A DNA stretch of 64,000 nucleotides, from positions 5,208,001 to 5,272,000 of the forward strand of contig AP026073.1 in NCBI GenBank assembly GCA_024349765.1. Reading direction: 5' to 3'. A model generated the notes under the pieces. The model searched no databases and was not told the origin of the DNA. It saw only the letters and a program-made list of their open reading frames with translations. The translations under genes were made by a program, and so were the position numbers. This DNA comes from Streptomyces nigrescens (GTDB taxonomy: Bacteria > Actinomycetota > Actinomycetes > Streptomycetales > Streptomycetaceae). Below are positions 4,358 to 9,469 of this stretch, one piece after another. Within the stretch, counting starts at the first letter, position 1, and each line of letters opens with the position of its first letter.

Positions 4358-4789
4358 TCATTCGGCCGGATCGACCGGATGCTTGCCCTTCGCACGGGTG
4401 TAGTTCGCTGAGGAGGCGGCGTATGTAATGCCGCCAAGCGCGCTCAACAGCGAGAATTTGCCGCCCAGTTCACCGCGAACCAGCTCATAGAAGGTGCCGC
4501 ACACAAGCACGAGCATCAGCACGTTCGCGGTTGTCGCCCCCGCCCTCCAGTTGATCAAACGGCGACGTTCGTCCTCGTCGTGCCCGCTGAGCTGTGCGGC
4601 GACGTCGCTGCGCTCCGCGGAAAAGGTGACGGCCAGCCCGTACCCGATGATGATCACCGGCAACACGATGGCCAGGGCGACCTCACCCCGCACTGCCATG
4701 ATGACCGCCATCGCTGCACCCCCGACCAGGGTCACTGCGAGAACGGCCCACCGGTTCGCCGCGCGGCTGATGCTATGCATCGTCAACAT
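4358..4789 (-). CDS. Small membrane protein paired with an XRE regulator
   Basis: A 143-residue protein with four predicted membrane segments: two back-to-back hydrophobic stretches (WAVLAVTLVGGAAMAVIMAV and ALAIVLPVIIIGYGLAVTF), then after a charged loop (HDEDERRRLINWRAGA) two more (ANVLMLVLVCGTFY and LLSALGGITYAASS). This resembles the DUF2178-like membrane proteins commonly paired with tiny Cro/CI-type regulators; function is unknown. The ATG at 4789 has GGAG seven bases upstream and overlaps the end of the regulator gene by 17 bp, indicating translational coupling. Expression should follow the regulator's promoter at 4972-5005. Confidence 0.75.
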   Translation of the reverse strand: MLTMHSISRAANRWAVLAVTLVGGAAMAVIMAVRGEVALAIVLPVIIIGYGLAVTFSAERSDVAAQLSGHDEDERRRLINWRAGATTANVLMLVLVCGTFYELVRGELGGKFSLLSALGGITYAASSANYTRAKGKHPVDPAE

Positions 4790-4970
4790 GGAAGATCTCC
4801 TCAACGGTGAGTCCGAAGTGCCGGGCGATTCGTATGGCCAGCGGTAGCGACGGGTCGTAGCGGTCCTGCTCGATTGCGTTCACTGTCTGCCGGGAAACTC
4901 CCAGTGCCACACCCAGTGCTTGCTGGGAGAGGCCTCGGGCGGCGCGCAGGCGGCGAACCTCATTTCGCAT
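4773..4970 (-). CDS. XRE-family helix-turn-helix regulator
   Basis: A 65-residue protein that is almost entirely one Cro/CI helix-turn-helix (RRLRAARGLSQQALGVALGV then SRQTVNAIEQDRYDPS), followed by LAIRIARHFGLTVEEIF, typical of the small YozG-like group. I chose the ATG at 4970 (MRNEV); further upstream the frame is not helix-turn-helix-like. The -10 hexamer ends six bases before this ATG, so the mRNA should be leaderless. A perfect 9-bp inverted repeat lies inside the promoter, so autorepression is the likely control. It forms an operon with the membrane protein just downstream. Confidence 0.85.
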   Translation of the reverse strand: MRNEVRRLRAARGLSQQALGVALGVSRQTVNAIEQDRYDPSLPLAIRIARHFGLTVEEIFHVDDA

Positions 4971-4971
4971 G

Positions 4972-5005
4972 GATGTAAAGTAAGCTTTACATCTCCAACT
5001 GTCAA
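4972..5005 (-). promoter_or_regulatory. Promoter with internal operator, XRE/membrane-protein operon
   Basis: On the minus strand TTGACA (5000-5005) is followed after 17 bp by TACTTT (4977-4982), a near-consensus vegetative promoter. A perfect inverted repeat GATGTAAAG-taag-CTTTACATC covers 4972-4993, overlapping the -10 element and spacer. The ATG begins six bases after the -10, so no leader with a ribosome site is possible. Repression by the adjacent XRE protein is inferred. Confidence 0.75.
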
Positions 5006-5553
5006 AGGTGACTTGCGTGTTCAGGTAACCGACATGCAACTGGGTGTTGGCCGGTCACTTTCAGGCAGCGGCTCAGGCCGGCCGTATGCCTGTCCTTGAC
5101 GGGATGAGCGGCGCGTCGAGGCCGCTGGCTGCGCGACCCCGCGTGGCCTGGCCACGGCAGGTGCGGCCACGATGACCGAGTCGGCAACTGAGCCGTGTTG
5201 CGCATAGCCCCCAGCGGGACCGGAATGCTTGGACGATCGCCGCACTACCAGCCCCGGGTGCCGGGCGACAGCAACGAGAGCTGCCATTGATGAGCATGGC
5301 CAGTGACCTTTAGCAGGCCGATCCCACGGAAGAACTCTGAGGCCGCAGCCAGCCGGTGCACCGCTGCATAGATGCCATGGACTACATCGCCGTCGAAGAG
5401 CGGTTGCTGCGCAACCCTCCGCCGATACCTCCTGGCCTCATATTGCTCGACGCACAGCCCGGCGCGGGCCAAGTTCCCTGCGGCCGCCGGGCCGTTGGCC
5501 CTGTGCGCACAAGCGCCGCATCGGAGCGACTCAAGGATGCCTTGCACCTTCCC
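5006..5553. other. Intergenic region without a convincing gene
   Basis: About 550 bp between the XRE promoter and the 3' end of the serine hydrolase gene. Open frames exist on both strands but have no recognisable motifs, no ribosome sites and overlapping alternatives. GC content is lower than in the flanking chromosome, as in the SDP-like operon beside it. I see no RNA gene or clear terminator here. Confidence 0.5.
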
Positions 5554-7098
5554 TCAGAGCTCGGCGGCGATGACGAGCAGGAGAAGCGACAGAAGGACGA
5601 CTCCGTATCGGGCTGCCGACAGAGCCGTTCTGACATCCAGCCGTTGATCGCGGTGTGGTGCGGGACATCGGTGGATGCCAACGAGGGAGCCAACGGACAA
5701 AAGTGCGCTACCCAATGCCCACGCCAATGGCGGAACAGAGAGCCAGTCGCCGATGCGCTGCAAGAGGACAAGAAGCATGGCCCCGAAAGCGACACTGAAG
5801 CCGAAATATACGTAGTAGATCTTCCTTGAAAATCCACGCCAGGCTACGTAGAAGACTGGGCCTGCTGCCCCCACGCTGCACAGTACCGTCAGCGCTATTT
5901 GAAATAGGTCAGGCTCAGGTCCCTCCCTTTCGGGAGTAAGGCCCAGCAAACTTTTCCCGATAGCGTCGACAGGCTGATCCGTATTGGAGAGGATAACTAC
6001 GCCCCGACGACCAGATCGGTCGAAACCCATATAGGAAGTGAATCCCCCGGTTGAGCCGTCGTGCCAGGTGATTTCTCGGCCCTGAGCATGGGTGGTGTAC
6101 CAACCCAACCCGATCTTCCCAGCACCCGCGGCATCGAACCGTGGTACAGCCGCTTCGGCACCTGGAGCCGTGCCGTGCAGCTCGGCCAGTACGAGGCGTG
6201 CAAGATCTTCACTTGTCGACCAGATATCGCCGGCCGGTGTATAGCCTGATGCCAGCCAGTGTTGCATGACAGGGCCGGTGGCTCTATAACCCGTCGCACT
6301 GTTACGTGGCACAGCCGTGTCCGAGTGGACAAATCGAGTACTTCTCATTGTCAACGGCTCAAGCACGTACTGCCGTAGGAGCGCTTCATATTTCTTTCCT
6401 GCGACCCGAGCAGCCGTCTGGCCTGCAAGCGCCATACCAAGATTTGAGTACCGAAATCTTCCCGTTCCGCTGGACGCAGCATTCCGCCCGGCCGTAAAGA
6501 CGTCCTCTTCAGTCATCCCACGGTAGGGGTCCTGCCCCATAATTCGCAGCTCCGCGCCACGCATGAACACATGAAGGTTCGACGGCATCAGGTCGAGTCC
6601 GGCCCGATGGCTGGCCAGATCCCGGAGCGTGGCCGAGCCCAATGCAGGATCGCCAAAGCGCATGTCGGGCAGGAGCCGCTGCAGGGGCATGTCAAGGCGT
6701 AGGGCATTGCGGGAGGCGAGTTCTGCGAGCAGCATCCCCGTCATCGGCTTTCCGAGCGAGCCGGCCTCAAAAACTGTGGTCTTGTCGACATTGGGGTGCT
6801 CGGGGTTGCCTGATTCGCCCAGTCCCGCAAAACGAATCCGGTTGCGGTCGATGACGGCTACGGCGAGCCCCCTATATCCGTGGGCGTTGCCCGCCGCCGC
6901 GCGTACTTGATTGGCGAGCGTGCGGTCGCCGGTCGTCGCGCTGCTGAGAGTGGGCGGACGCGGTATGAAGAAGATCCAGGAGGCCAGCACGGCCATGACT
7001 GCAATGCACAACAGAAGGGGACCGCGACGCTGGTACCGCCATGTGCGTGCCAATGCTATGCCAGCCTGCCTGGAAGCCTTGCCTACCTCAGCCGGCAT
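5554..7098 (-). CDS. Membrane-anchored serine hydrolase, class C beta-lactamase fold
   Basis: A 514-residue protein. An N-terminal membrane segment (LLLCIAVMAVLASWIFFI) is followed by an extracytoplasmic beta-lactamase/esterase domain with SLGK (SxxK nucleophile and base), YSNLG (YxN) and WHDGSTGG (HxG). The C terminus holds about four further membrane segments. Family members include D-aminopeptidases, esterases and penicillin-binding-like hydrolases. The ATG at 7098 overlaps the end of the HTTM gene by 11 bp, so translation is coupled. As last gene of the SDP-like operon it could process the peptide, modify the wall or give self-protection; none of these is demonstrated. GC content is below the chromosomal norm. 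Confidence 0.8.
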   Translation of the reverse strand: MPAEVGKASRQAGIALARTWRYQRRGPLLLCIAVMAVLASWIFFIPRPPTLSSATTGDRTLANQVRAAAGNAHGYRGLAVAVIDRNRIRFAGLGESGNPEHPNVDKTTVFEAGSLGKPMTGMLLAELASRNALRLDMPLQRLLPDMRFGDPALGSATLRDLASHRAGLDLMPSNLHVFMRGAELRIMGQDPYRGMTEEDVFTAGRNAASSGTGRFRYSNLGMALAGQTAARVAGKKYEALLRQYVLEPLTMRSTRFVHSDTAVPRNSATGYRATGPVMQHWLASGYTPAGDIWSTSEDLARLVLAELHGTAPGAEAAVPRFDAAGAGKIGLGWYTTHAQGREITWHDGSTGGFTSYMGFDRSGRRGVVILSNTDQPVDAIGKSLLGLTPEREGPEPDLFQIALTVLCSVGAAGPVFYVAWRGFSRKIYYVYFGFSVAFGAMLLVLLQRIGDWLSVPPLAWALGSALLSVGSLVGIHRCPAPHRDQRLDVRTALSAARYGVVLLSLLLLVIAAEL

Positions 7099-8104
7099 GA
7101 GCCGCTGGTTCGAGGTTGCCACGCTTACCGAATAGCTTTTGCGCCTGGTCGACAAGACGATGATAGTGCTCATCTCCCATGATGAGCAGCTCCAATGCAA
7201 TCATAGTCGCCGAGAATGTAAGGAGCCCGCTCATGAAAACGGCTATTCCCAGATGCAGGAGAACTCCACAGGTGACAGCGAAGGGTCGCAAGGAGCGTTT
7301 CAACAGAAGGAATGCGAAGGCAATCTGGAAAAATACGGTCGCGTATGTCATCGCCACCACCAGGGTGGCGTGCTCGTAGACGAAGTGGTTGACGCCCGGC
7401 CACCCGAACTCGCCCACCCGGAGGATGTAATAGAGCGCGGTCCCGTTCTGCCAGCGTTCACCCTGAACCTTGTACATTCCCGAAACAAGGTAGATCGTGC
7501 ACACCTGAAGAATGACGGCCAGTACGCCAGCGTGGTGCAGAAGCGATCCGATCCGGTACCGCATTGAGCCGGCATCCGGCTTCACTTGCTTCCGCCGACG
7601 CGACCGGGCGTCGAGTGAGAAGCGGGAACCGGAATCAATGAACACGAAGAAGAAAAGCGCGATGGCGGTTGCGTTGTCGCCACCGTCCAGAAGCAGGGGA
7701 TTCCTTTGCTGAAGGGACCACAGGAAGATGTAGTGCAGCACTGTCATCGCCCTGGTCTTCCATCCCAGCATGAACAGCAGGGCTATCACTGCGCCGGCGT
7801 GAAAAACCAGCTGGAACCATGTTTCGGACTTGCTGAGCGAGTACAGGGAGAGCGCGTCGTTGTCCGGTCCGGTGATGTTCTGCCAGGGCCACACTCCTTC
7901 CGGGCCCCACAGAAAGCTTCGGTGGAGATAGTCCCGCAGGTAGTAGTAGAGCCCGATGGCCCCCAACATAATTCTGGTGAGAGCTGCTCCAACAAGTGCA
8001 TGGCGTCTGCCACTGAAGCTCTCAAGCCAGGAGTACGCCAGCGCCTTCATATTGGCCAGCACGGTGTTGCTCCTGGTTCCGATTCGGAGACCTTTTTCCG
8101 TCAT
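7088..8104 (-). CDS. HTTM-domain membrane protein (SdpB-like)
   Basis: A 338-residue polytopic membrane protein of the HTTM (vitamin K-dependent carboxylase-like) family. The N-terminal region has the family pattern RIMLGAIGLYYYLRDYLHRS followed by a WGPEGVWPW loop, then repeated membrane helices with LWSLQQRNPLLLDGGDN, a strongly conserved HTTM segment. In Bacillus the relative SdpB is needed, with SdpA, to make the SDP toxin from SdpC. The ATG overlaps the previous gene's TGA by four bases (ATGA), and its own end overlaps the serine hydrolase start, so the three genes form one tight operon. Family membership is clear; the SdpB role is inferred from context. Confidence 0.8.
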   Translation of the reverse strand: MTEKGLRIGTRSNTVLANMKALAYSWLESFSGRRHALVGAALTRIMLGAIGLYYYLRDYLHRSFLWGPEGVWPWQNITGPDNDALSLYSLSKSETWFQLVFHAGAVIALLFMLGWKTRAMTVLHYIFLWSLQQRNPLLLDGGDNATAIALFFFVFIDSGSRFSLDARSRRRKQVKPDAGSMRYRIGSLLHHAGVLAVILQVCTIYLVSGMYKVQGERWQNGTALYYILRVGEFGWPGVNHFVYEHATLVVAMTYATVFFQIAFAFLLLKRSLRPFAVTCGVLLHLGIAVFMSGLLTFSATMIALELLIMGDEHYHRLVDQAQKLFGKRGNLEPAAHAG

Positions 8105-8835
8105 CGTTCAACCTTTACCGGCTTCATCCACGCCAGGTCGTAGTAAGAAACCTTGCCCTTGGCGTCTCGTGCGTAGCGTTGCGAGAACCTGGGAAATATG
8201 TTGGTCACGATCCGCACCTGCACGTATTCGATGTCTGACCCCCACAACTTGCCGGCCTGAGCGGTCGCGAATGACTGGGCGAATCGGATCGCTGCGTCCC
8301 GGGAGTCTTTTTCGCCCTGACTGAGGGGAGGATTCTCAACTTCCTTCTTCCCTTTTCGCACCCCTTTACCTGGAGTGTCGGCGACCTGATTCTTCTTTCT
8401 CATCTTTTCGAGTTCAGGGTCGCGCCAGGTTTCGAGCAACTGCGGCAATCCGGAGGTGACGCGGAATCCTCTCGAAGGCCAGAGCCGCTCTCCATAGAGT
8501 TGCTGCAGGGACGGCGATGTCACATCAGTCCACTTCGTGGTAATTACCGAGCCGTCCGGCTGGCGCTTTTTAGCTCGCACAAGGACGCCATTGTCCCTAT
8601 CTATAGGGTCGGGTGCAAACAGATGCCAATCCTGTACGAAATACGGCAACATGTAGGAAGTGATTTCCTCGCCATACTTCTCCTTGACCGGGTTGAACGG
8701 CATTTCATAAAGTGCCGTCATGCCGAAGTGAAGGGACAATGCCAGGGGGATAACAGCTCCGACTGCCAGCAGAATACGTCTCCTGGTTCTACTCCATTGC
8801 GCGAGCGGCGCACTTTCGGGACTCGTATCTTCCAC
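8101..8835 (-). CDS. DUF5819 family protein (SdpA-like)
   Basis: A 244-residue protein with one N-terminal membrane anchor (RRILLAVGAVIPLALSLHF) and a mostly extracytoplasmic body. PYFVQDWHLFAPDPIDRDNG is the diagnostic DUF5819 block, also resembling SdpA. A lysine-rich stretch near residues 140-165 (RKKNQVADTPGKGVRKGKKE) looks like a flexible insertion. The start is a GTG at 8835; the upstream ribosome site is weak. It sits between the peptide gene and the HTTM gene and overlaps the latter by four bases. DUF5819 and HTTM genes are commonly adjacent in actinobacteria, which supports joint work on a secreted substrate. The biochemical activity is unknown. Confidence 0.75.
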   Translation of the reverse strand: MEDTSPESAPLAQWSRTRRRILLAVGAVIPLALSLHFGMTALYEMPFNPVKEKYGEEITSYMLPYFVQDWHLFAPDPIDRDNGVLVRAKKRQPDGSVITTKWTDVTSPSLQQLYGERLWPSRGFRVTSGLPQLLETWRDPELEKMRKKNQVADTPGKGVRKGKKEVENPPLSQGEKDSRDAAIRFAQSFATAQAGKLWGSDIEYVQVRIVTNIFPRFSQRYARDAKGKVSYYDLAWMKPVKVER

Positions 8836-8922
8836 CGTTCAAGGTGCCTTTCGGTCGAGGCTGTGCGGCGGGCCCGGCATACGGGCCCGCCGCACAGGAC
8901 TAATTAAGGTGATCTTCTATCG

Positions 8923-9282
8923 TTAGTCGAAAGCGCGAGACATTCCAGACGCGCCGACCTCCGAAGGAGCAGGAATTCCGCCCCGCCGGAACATCTTCTC
9001 CTGAGCCTTTACAGGGTGATTCGCCGCATACTTCAGGCCTTCATAGGCGGCATTACCCACGACGCCCTGGGCAATGCCCTTGGCGAAACTGGCCCAGCCA
9101 CAACGCGGTTCCACACGGCCTTCGCCACCGACAACCTTCTCCGGCTTGGTGGACGCCTCCTGGAAGGCGACTGCAGTGGTTTCGGACTTGACGGAAGATT
9201 CCGCAGATGCGCTGGTCGCCGTAACGGCGGTGGCGCAAACGGCCACAGCGGCTCCCGCGATAACGAGCTTGACTCTGTTCAT
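8923..9282 (-). CDS. Small secreted peptide precursor, candidate SDP-like toxin
   Basis: A 119-residue preprotein. I chose the ATG at 9282 because GAGGGG lies seven bases upstream; it yields a clean Sec signal peptide (MNRVKLVIAGAAVAVCATAV then TATSASA, cleavage expected near residue 27). The mature part has an acidic/polar pro-segment, a single cysteine at residue 61 (EPRCGW), then an amphipathic Gly/Ala-rich stretch GWASFAKGIAQGVVGNAAY, a basic FRRGG and a tail ending SRAFD. No known domain is recognised. Position at the head of a DUF5819-HTTM operon matches that of SdpC-type toxin precursors, so an antimicrobial or signalling peptide is likely but unproven. The 87-bp gap to the next gene may hold a processing or attenuation site. 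Confidence 0.7.
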   Translation of the reverse strand: MNRVKLVIAGAAVAVCATAVTATSASAESSVKSETTAVAFQEASTKPEKVVGGEGRVEPRCGWASFAKGIAQGVVGNAAYEGLKYAANHPVKAQEKMFRRGGIPAPSEVGASGMSRAFD

Positions 9283-9362
9283 TTTTGTTCCCCTCTTTGA
9301 ATGATGCACTTACGGTCAGGGGTTGAGAATTCATCCCCGTGGTCGTAAGCGGCGCTCATGAC

Positions 9363-9391
9363 TTTATAAGAGGGAGCGATCTTGGCAAGTG
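9363..9391 (-). promoter_or_regulatory. Possible promoter of the SDP-like operon
   Basis: In the AT-richer region upstream of the peptide gene the minus strand has TATAAA at 9363-9368. Candidate -35 elements are TTGCCA (14-bp spacer, short) or CACTTG (17-bp spacer, weak). The leader to the ATG would be about 75 bases. No inverted repeat stands out. Confidence 0.3.
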
Positions 9392-9469
9392 TTCGAAATC
9401 ACAAATCAATCGAAGTTCACGGCAAAAGCTCGTTAAAGTGCCGTGCTCATTCGCGATTTTATTTGAGCA

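Follow-up and report, generated by a model that had tools for sequence, protein, structure and literature searches.

A four-gene operon in the window, by which we mean the whole 64,000-nucleotide stretch of Streptomyces nigrescens DNA analysed here, is conserved, evolves under purifying selection as a unit and has relatives outside Streptomyces. This is probably an SDP-like system: it would produce a small secreted peptide, which is most likely a toxin that acts on membranes, either antibacterial or of the cannibalism type. The features of the region are as follows.

8923-9282, minus strand: secreted peptide precursor, 119 aa, Sec-type
8861-8897, minus strand: stem-loop with a 16-bp stem, after the peptide stop and ahead of the DUF5819 start
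8101-8835, minus strand: DUF5819 protein (PF19136), one N-terminal TM segment by hydropathy
7088-8104, minus strand: HTTM / SdpB-like multi-TM protein (TIGR04033 7.8e-25, below cut-off)
5554-7098, minus strand: class C / S12-type serine hydrolase (PF00144), membrane-anchored; alternative TTG start at 7200
5314-5496, minus strand: FAD-dependent (CrtI/CrtO-like) oxidoreductase gene, remnant (56% identity over 62 aa)

An earlier note on this DNA had described the four-gene set, and all four ORFs were found, all on the minus strand. We read them as one operon in the order peptide precursor, DUF5819, SdpB/HTTM and serine hydrolase. The gene overlaps given in that note are exact: the DUF5819 and HTTM genes share 4 bp (8101-8104), and the hydrolase ATG at 7098 lies 11 bp inside the HTTM gene, whose stop codon ends at 7088. 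A longer reading of the hydrolase ORF begins at the TTG at 7200. The lower GC content noted before was also reproduced (0.589 in the operon vs 0.668 upstream and 0.652 downstream). The FAD-dependent oxidoreductase gene, of which the window keeps only a remnant, adjoins several related operons. The genes scanned between 3418 and 11393 encode HAD-like, DUF2178-like (below cut-off), HTH, AsnC and permease proteins, and neither SdpI nor SdpR was found among them. Of 15 loci searched, only two, the window and L005, have the XRE/DUF2178-like pair, and immunity conferred by this pair was therefore rejected.

The putative secreted peptide and its conservation

The precursor is built, in order, of a Sec-type signal (residues 1-27), a variable pro region with ETTAxAF, a Gly/Ala-rich central segment, FRRGG and a C-terminal SRAFD. 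The signal proposed earlier was recognised by eye, ending in ASA at residues 25-27. The single Cys at residue 61 is present in the window peptide as described, but it is kept in only 2 of the 8 clade-A peptides defined below (the window peptide and its nearest relative), and a Cys-based peptide was rejected on this ground. The amphipathic helix suggested in the earlier note did not hold up, because 16-17% of shuffles equalled or bettered the native sequence; a generic amphipathic helix was thus rejected for the window peptide. Amphipathicity at or below 1% of shuffles was reached by one of 8 clade-A and 4 of 7 clade-B peptides. Neither Pfam nor NCBIfam gave the peptide a meaningful match that would make it an SdpC-family precursor, and hhalign against two SdpC-type toxins scored 9.5.

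Searches of 295 Streptomyces genomes, in which the best 15 candidates per genome were scored for peptides and the best 7 for A6, matched the peptide model in at least 8 genomes (clade A). All 8 of these loci have the four genes, ordered as in the window; in one of them (L006) the HTTM gene is frameshifted. A second Streptomyces peptide clade, clade B, was matched in at least 17 of the 295 genomes, with DUF5819 directly downstream in at least 15. Clade-A and clade-B peptides resemble each other barely above shuffles (17.4 vs 16.6). Both carry a C-terminal F-D tail: F-D is found in 8 of 8 clade-A peptides, and all 15 clade-B peptides preceding DUF5819 end in [VIA]FD[KR], the other two matches ending otherwise. 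The four-gene unit is under purifying selection, with a peptide dN/dS of 0.14 against the nearest relative and 0.14-0.45 across five pairs.

Cousin peptides were seen in the same gene position on Virgibacillus and Macrococcus plasmids and on a viral-type contig. The Macrococcus peptide matched the window peptide at a BLASTP E of 6e-6 in a single comparison, and at hhalign scores of 35-37 where the shuffle maximum was 16.5 (n=40). Two of the three Bacillota-type peptides, those of Macrococcus (EFAR) and the viral contig (IFNK), are without the F-D tail. A plasmid search with the window peptide and a search of phage records with two HTTM queries found nothing.

The stem-loop, which was missing from the earlier note, has a perfect 16-bp stem and a folding z of -5.4 against a background of random stretches of the window rather than intergenic gaps. 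A hairpin was found in 12 of 12 peptide-DUF5819 gaps folded, where the 328-nt gap of L060 was represented by its last 110 nt; in the L008 gap, 8 of 200 shuffles fold as well. There is no T-run and no terminator-like site was found, so an intrinsic terminator after the peptide gene was rejected; instead of being a classical terminator, the hairpin may be an attenuator or may stabilise the mRNA. It would probably let more of the peptide be produced than of the membrane proteins.

The DUF5819 and HTTM membrane pair

The DUF5819 protein of the window, which carries a QDWHLFAP motif, matched PF19136 (1.8e-34) and no other Pfam family; it gave no match to SdpA (PF17418), for which no match was found elsewhere in the genome either. 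The two families are nevertheless distantly similar at the level of profiles, in line with the SDP-like reading of the earlier note. DUF5819 against SdpA scored 38.5 with hhalign, the maximum among 34 controls being 20.8 (20 column shuffles, 10 TM-keeping shuffles, one reversal and 3 other families). The score was 38.8 with 60 and 14 sequences, of which the program kept 43 of the 60. A structure model of the DUF5819 protein was poor (mean pLDDT 59). On the profile similarity, we propose that DUF5819 may be the counterpart of SdpA.

The third protein matched the SdpB model TIGR04033 with an E of 7.8e-25 and 88 bits, the cut-off being 178.4, and Pfam HTTM with 2.8e-6 and 27.6 bits against a cut-off of 27.7. 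These matches bear out the description of this protein as SdpB-like and, by sequence, make it an SdpB relative outside the curated subfamily. A 16-row HTTM profile that includes three SdpBs also matched the chains of human gamma-carboxylase (GGCX) in the PDB at 7e-11, whereas a profile of four clade-A HTTMs alone matched no PDB chain. The homology extends over the TM core, and K212 of the window protein aligns with GGCX K218, which we take to be the carboxylase base; the lysine is invariant in 16 of 16 rows, the three SdpBs included. The window protein and GGCX thus share a superfamily, although the former has 338 aa and the latter about 758.

This relation raises the question of whether the HTTM protein modifies the peptide chemically, perhaps in a quinone-dependent manner like GGCX, rather than aiding its cleavage. 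The GGCX homology and the invariant lysine are consistent with such a role, as is the occurrence of a DCC1 thiol-disulfide oxidoreductase, which in four cousins is either fused to HTTM or lies near it and which in Niallia accompanies SdpA-SdpB. However, the operon of the window showed no DCC1 gene, no Glu is invariant across the 8 clade-A peptides, and we know of no carboxylation of SDP. We regard chemical modification as unlikely, even though linaridin clusters also pair an HTTM protein with a hydrolase, both of which are presumed to aid maturation, in a way that is not clear (available part of PMC9927463).

DUF5819 itself is present in 291 of the 295 Streptomyces genomes. When 30 of these common loci were read with flanks of up to 1.5 kb, as were the DUF5819-linked clade-B loci, the peptide model matched at 0 of 30. 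The idea in the earlier note that a short secreted gene is conserved beside DUF5819-HTTM pairs consequently fails for the common pair. It stands for a distinct branch, found in at least 8 and at least 15 of the 295 Streptomyces genomes, on Bacillota plasmids and on a viral-type contig. In the HTTM tree, clade-A and clade-B HTTMs that are linked to a peptide fall into one group (97/92), which those of Virgibacillus and the viral contig join (85/85), apart from the core pairs. (Two rows of this tree, L107 and L109, are labelled 'big'; no large protein was found at either locus.)

In other Actinomycetes, a large secreted protein precedes the pair at 4 of the 12 non-peptide loci examined, one of them a choice-of-anchor G protein (8.3e-50) and the others with LPxTG-like tails. 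At three plasmid loci the pair also follows large proteins, with ice-binding annotations or a repeat protein. These loci resemble the window in having the same membrane pair downstream of a secreted protein, but their substrate is a large protein, their HTTMs belong to other branches, and no S12 hydrolase match was found in L107-L116. Together with the near-universal DUF5819 and its peptide-free loci in Streptomyces, they could indicate that DUF5819 and HTTM generally serve as a pair to mature secreted surface proteins, and that the peptide has a surface, developmental or signalling role rather than that of a toxin. We think this rather unlikely, because HTTMs linked to a peptide, whether from Streptomyces, Virgibacillus or the viral contig, make up a group of their own. 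In addition, the patchy distribution of the peptide (at least 20 of 295 genomes), the partly different flanks and the carriage on plasmids or viral-type contigs are more in keeping with a competitive weapon than with housekeeping.

The serine hydrolase

Pfam Beta-lactamase (PF00144) matched the hydrolase at 1.6e-48. The protein has an N-terminal TM segment, a catalytic domain with SxxK, YSN and HDG motifs and, by hydropathy, 4 C-terminal TM segments (3-4 across the 8 loci). The SxxK, YxN and HxG motifs are invariant in 5 of 5 aligned hydrolases, placing the protein in class C / S12. All 8 clade-A loci carry the gene, as do 6 of the 7 clade-B loci for which long flanks were read; it is not peculiar to one genome.

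ClbP, a membrane S12 prodrug peptidase with three C-terminal TM helices, activates colibactin (available part of PMC9889268). The window hydrolase shares with it the S12 fold and, by prediction, an outside catalytic domain and C-terminal TM helices. However, 3-4 helices are predicted here against three in ClbP, and ClbP is not the nearest relative by sequence, since a DD-peptidase and class C beta-lactamases score above it. A role in activating the peptide is suggested by this resemblance. The type of hydrolase varies, being a membrane-anchored S12 protein in clade A, a soluble S12 protein in clade B and a PF13354 protein on the viral contig. Neither of the two clade-B hydrolases tested has a TM segment or a signal at its start, which fits poorly with a cleavage step outside the cell.

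Such differing types and topologies would suit protection of the producer more than stereotyped processing. Apart from the hydrolase, the neighbourhood of the operon has no conserved immunity-like gene, the XRE/DUF2178-like pair being present at two of the loci searched. The hydrolase may therefore be an immunity factor that inactivates the peptide or alters the envelope, rather than a maturation enzyme. We hold this to be a serious possibility but not the favoured one: the predicted architecture resembles that of the activating peptidase ClbP, and the Virgibacillus and Macrococcus cassettes, which have no hydrolase annotated beside them, would lack that immunity.

Comparison with named systems and a proposed mechanism

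The SDP system of Bacillus subtilis is encoded by sdpABC and has a paralogue, yitPOM. As far as the available part of PMC6818787 describes it, the window cassette resembles it in having one operon with a Sec-type precursor, a single-TM protein and an SdpB/HTTM protein, in the adjacency of the SdpA-like and SdpB-like genes, and in that each toxin group has its own C-terminal domain. It differs from the system described there in that the peptide is unrelated to SdpC by sequence and its gene comes first, not last; DUF5819 stands in place of SdpA, a serine hydrolase is added, and the genes scanned include no SdpI or SdpR. A true sdpABC operon was rejected, as SdpA gave no match and the SdpB score (88 vs 178.4 bits) is below the cut-off. 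The best reading is that the cassette works like SDP; that it is SDP was rejected for want of SdpC similarity, of scores above the family cut-offs and of SdpI among the genes scanned.

There is a precedent in Actinomycetes: linaridin clusters such as corynaridin encode a ribosomal peptide precursor next to an HTTM-domain protein and a hydrolase (PMC9927463). In the available part of that source, however, the linaridin hydrolase has an alpha/beta-fold, where ours is S12; LinL and a PxxxTP cleavage motif are linaridin features, and the motif is absent by eye from the window peptide; and DUF5819 is unmentioned. The four operon proteins matched families other than LinL in the Pfam search.

We propose that the precursor, judging from its sequence, would be exported by Sec and its signal removed. 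The single-TM DUF5819 protein and the SdpB/HTTM protein would then cooperate at the membrane to mature the peptide, in the way that SdpA and SdpB mature SdpC. For recognition, the likeliest element in the Streptomyces peptides may be their C-terminal F-D tail. The hydrolase, with its catalytic domain predicted outside, would most likely contribute to a last cleavage or activation step, by analogy with ClbP, or else protect the producer. A bolder and quite improbable reading is that the cassettes represent a new class of modified ribosomal peptides in Streptomyces (with the F-D tag) and Bacillota, combining a distinct DUF5819-HTTM branch, GGCX-like quinone chemistry and an activating hydrolase of beta-lactamase fold, and carried on chromosomes, plasmids and possibly phages.

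To our knowledge, the mechanism by which SdpA and SdpB mature SDP is unsolved, and a full-text search of the open literature, which leaves most subscription papers out of scope, found no paper on DUF5819. If DUF5819 is the SdpA counterpart, it would provide many diverged pairs of substrate and machine to compare and a C-terminal tag open to mutation, and it would make the relation of bacterial HTTM proteins to the vitamin K carboxylase fold testable. Streptomyces and Bacillota would then also be expected to hold a group of secreted peptides that has yet to be mined.

The operon and its surroundings in Streptomyces

The operon under study lies on the minus strand of the window:

9282 to 5554, minus strand: four genes encoding a 119-aa secreted precursor (8923-9282), a DUF5819 protein (8101-8835), an HTTM/SdpB-like protein (7088-8104) and a class C-type serine hydrolase (5554-7098)

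The gene overlaps of 4 bp and 11 bp claimed in the earlier note are both present, given a hydrolase start at the ATG at 7098. A search with the DUF5819 protein returned four named Streptomyces loci, all with the peptide gene upstream and the remaining genes downstream. A model made from five peptides matched at least 8 of 295 Streptomyces genomes, counting the window's own, a lower bound because the best 15 first-look candidates were scored per genome. In these window-type loci (clade A) the order of the four genes was identical (8/8) and the HTTM gene was intact in seven; in S. triculaminicus (L006, 6732-7755) it is split by a frameshift, or by a sequencing error. The clade-A peptides kept ETTAxAF-like, FxRG and C-terminal (S/D/N)R(A/S)FD segments, and the remainder was variable. 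Peptide dN/dS in five pairs was 0.14, 0.45, 0.41, 0.20 and 0.15, and that of the other operon genes, where computable, was 0.12-0.30.

The upstream permease neighbourhood is common to the window, L005 and L006 and absent from the other five clade-A loci. An AsnC gene beside the permease is shared by the window and L005, and a match to an upstream 80-residue ORF by L008 and L053. The GC content of the operon was below that of both flanks in 7 of the 8 loci, the exception being L007. It is likely that the operon was transferred as a cassette. Downstream of the operon, at 4358-5039 on the minus strand of the window, are an XRE regulator and a DUF2178-like membrane protein, which among 15 loci searched only L005 also has. 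Nearer to the operon is a gene remnant:

5314-5496, minus strand: what is left (62 aa) of a CrtI/CrtO-like FAD oxidoreductase, immediately downstream of the operon

Longer copies of this oxidoreductase adjoin related operons of both Streptomyces clades, in variable orientation: in clade A the gene is common to L006, L053 and L054 (3/8), and in the S. parvus-type clade B it was found in five genomes (L104, L105/L132, L106, L134 and L144). Close orthologues (at least 64% identity) occurred in 9 of 61 Streptomyces genomes, beside a clade-B operon in at least two (G009 and G034), and the intact copy of the window's own genome is located elsewhere. Chance is an unlikely cause of this adjacency, which may reflect function or a shared insertion site alike; the oxidoreductase is possibly a fifth operon gene.

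Between the peptide stop and the DUF5819 gene a stem-loop was found in all 12 gaps folded (z -2.0 to -7.8), those of the eight clade-A loci and of S. avidinii, Macrococcus, Virgibacillus and a viral-type contig. A perfect stem of 12 bp or more stood in nine of the first 11 gaps; among 3000 random 87-nt segments of the window, 0.37% had one. The peptide and DUF5819 genes overlap, leaving no such gap, in S. parvus and in L103, L105 and L106 at least. No T-run was found at the window's stem-loop, and we read the structure as a putative device lifting expression of the peptide above that of the membrane proteins.

The DUF5819 and HTTM proteins

In the Bacillus SDP toxin system the precursor SdpC is matured by SdpA and SdpB. 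In both DUF5819 and SdpA a TM helix precedes a motif of the form QDWHLFAPDP / PQGWxFFTKxP. Their hhalign score was 38.5, with all 34 controls at 20.8 or less, and 38.8 when 60 and 14 sequences were used; the stated probability was 63-72%, so the evidence for similarity is good, not final. DUF5819 is present in 291 of 295 Streptomyces genomes, and across the class its model had hits in 75 of 394 genomes, spread over 11 of 137 genera. At the best 30 Streptomyces loci an HTTM match adjoined DUF5819 in 29 and a peptide match was found in none. A large secreted protein lay upstream in 4 of 12 non-peptide pairs whose long flanks were read, and also in three plasmid loci. The DUF5819-HTTM pair alone is no toxin marker. 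In four Actinomycetes loci (L107, L108, L113 and L116) two such pairs are closely spaced, in some cases with large wall-anchored proteins nearby.

The SdpB model matched the HTTM protein at 7.8e-25, under the model's cut-off. A 16-row HTTM profile including three SdpBs matched structures of the vitamin K-dependent gamma-glutamyl carboxylase (GGCX) at 7e-11; a four-row profile from clade A alone matched no structure. HTTM K212, invariant in 16/16 rows, aligned with the second lysine of GGCX AGVKKLDADW (K218, numbered by its offset in the 758-residue chain), which we take to be the catalytic base.

In a 43-row HTTM tree, for which the program warned of long branches, clade A (100/99), clade B (100/100) and A+B (97/92) were recovered. 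A+B grouped with Virgibacillus and the viral contig at 85/85, not among the strongest supports, and this group stood apart from core Streptomyces pairs and SdpB (100/100). Macrococcus was a long branch and unplaced. The pair of L064 (CP123774.1), a plasmid entered under Bacillus subtilis, clustered with Curtobacterium (99/94), and its species assignment may be wrong. In Niallia (L069, 1777-2740) sdpA-sdpB is directly preceded by a gene for a DCC1-like thiol oxidoreductase. Members of this family are fused to HTTM in Virgibacillus and lie near it in Macrococcus, S. avidinii and S. parvus, a placement that suggests a shared redox step.

The serine hydrolase

Hydrophobic segments lie at both ends of all eight clade-A hydrolases, one N-terminal and 3-4 C-terminal, and the catalytic motifs were invariant in 5/5 aligned. 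Relatives identified by profile among solved structures included a DD-peptidase, class C beta-lactamases, a D-peptidase and ClbP. An excerpt of PMC9889268 describes ClbP as an enzyme that activates a precursor once it has been exported, with the catalytic domain outside and three C-terminal TM helices. Six of seven clade-B loci encode a shorter S12 protein, and the two tested had no TM segment.

The wider peptide family and known systems

A tblastn search of plasmids with the HTTM protein gave 23 records, and 12 neighbourhoods were read. Three held true sdp genes; four of the other nine (S. parvus, S. avidinii, Virgibacillus and Macrococcus bovicus) had a short secreted gene ahead of DUF5819-HTTM. 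Clade-B peptides matched at least 17 of 295 Streptomyces genomes; 15 had DUF5819 directly downstream and, in all 15, a C-terminal [VIA]FD[KR], and the other two had neither. Three genomes (G034, G157 and G199) carry both clades, and at least 20 of 295 carry either. The viral-type contig (L118) encodes a peptide, DUF5819 and HTTM, together with a small protein and a serine hydrolase of PF13354. On the Virgibacillus plasmid (L060, 2003-3192) DUF5819 is preceded by two near-identical tandem peptide genes and by what visual inspection suggests is a decayed third.

A 61-residue alignment joined the window and Macrococcus peptides (single-comparison BLASTP E 6e-6; hhalign 35-37, shuffle maximum 16.5). 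For the remaining pairs, scores against the maximum of 40 shuffles were 17.4/16.6 (A-B), 16.6/12.8 (A-Virgibacillus), 13.8/11.9 (B-Virgibacillus), 20.5/11.3 (B-viral), 12.6/16.0 (A-viral) and 12.0/13.7 (B-Macrococcus). Thus some pairs are genuinely linked and others weakly or not at all, and the case for a common origin of the peptides draws, besides these scores, on the HTTM tree and the order of the genes. An F-D tail occurs in both Streptomyces clades and, as SFDL, in Virgibacillus; the Macrococcus and viral-contig peptides, which lack it, end in EFAR and IFNK.

Linaridin clusters, as described in an excerpt of PMC9927463, are a precedent for HTTM, a hydrolase and a ribosomal peptide together, but differ from the window's operon in hydrolase fold, precursor motif and DUF5819. 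SDP-like genes are reported in Brevibacterium (PMC5719810, in excerpt). The window's operon probably works like SDP but is not SDP itself, and its peptide is a plausible candidate antimicrobial.
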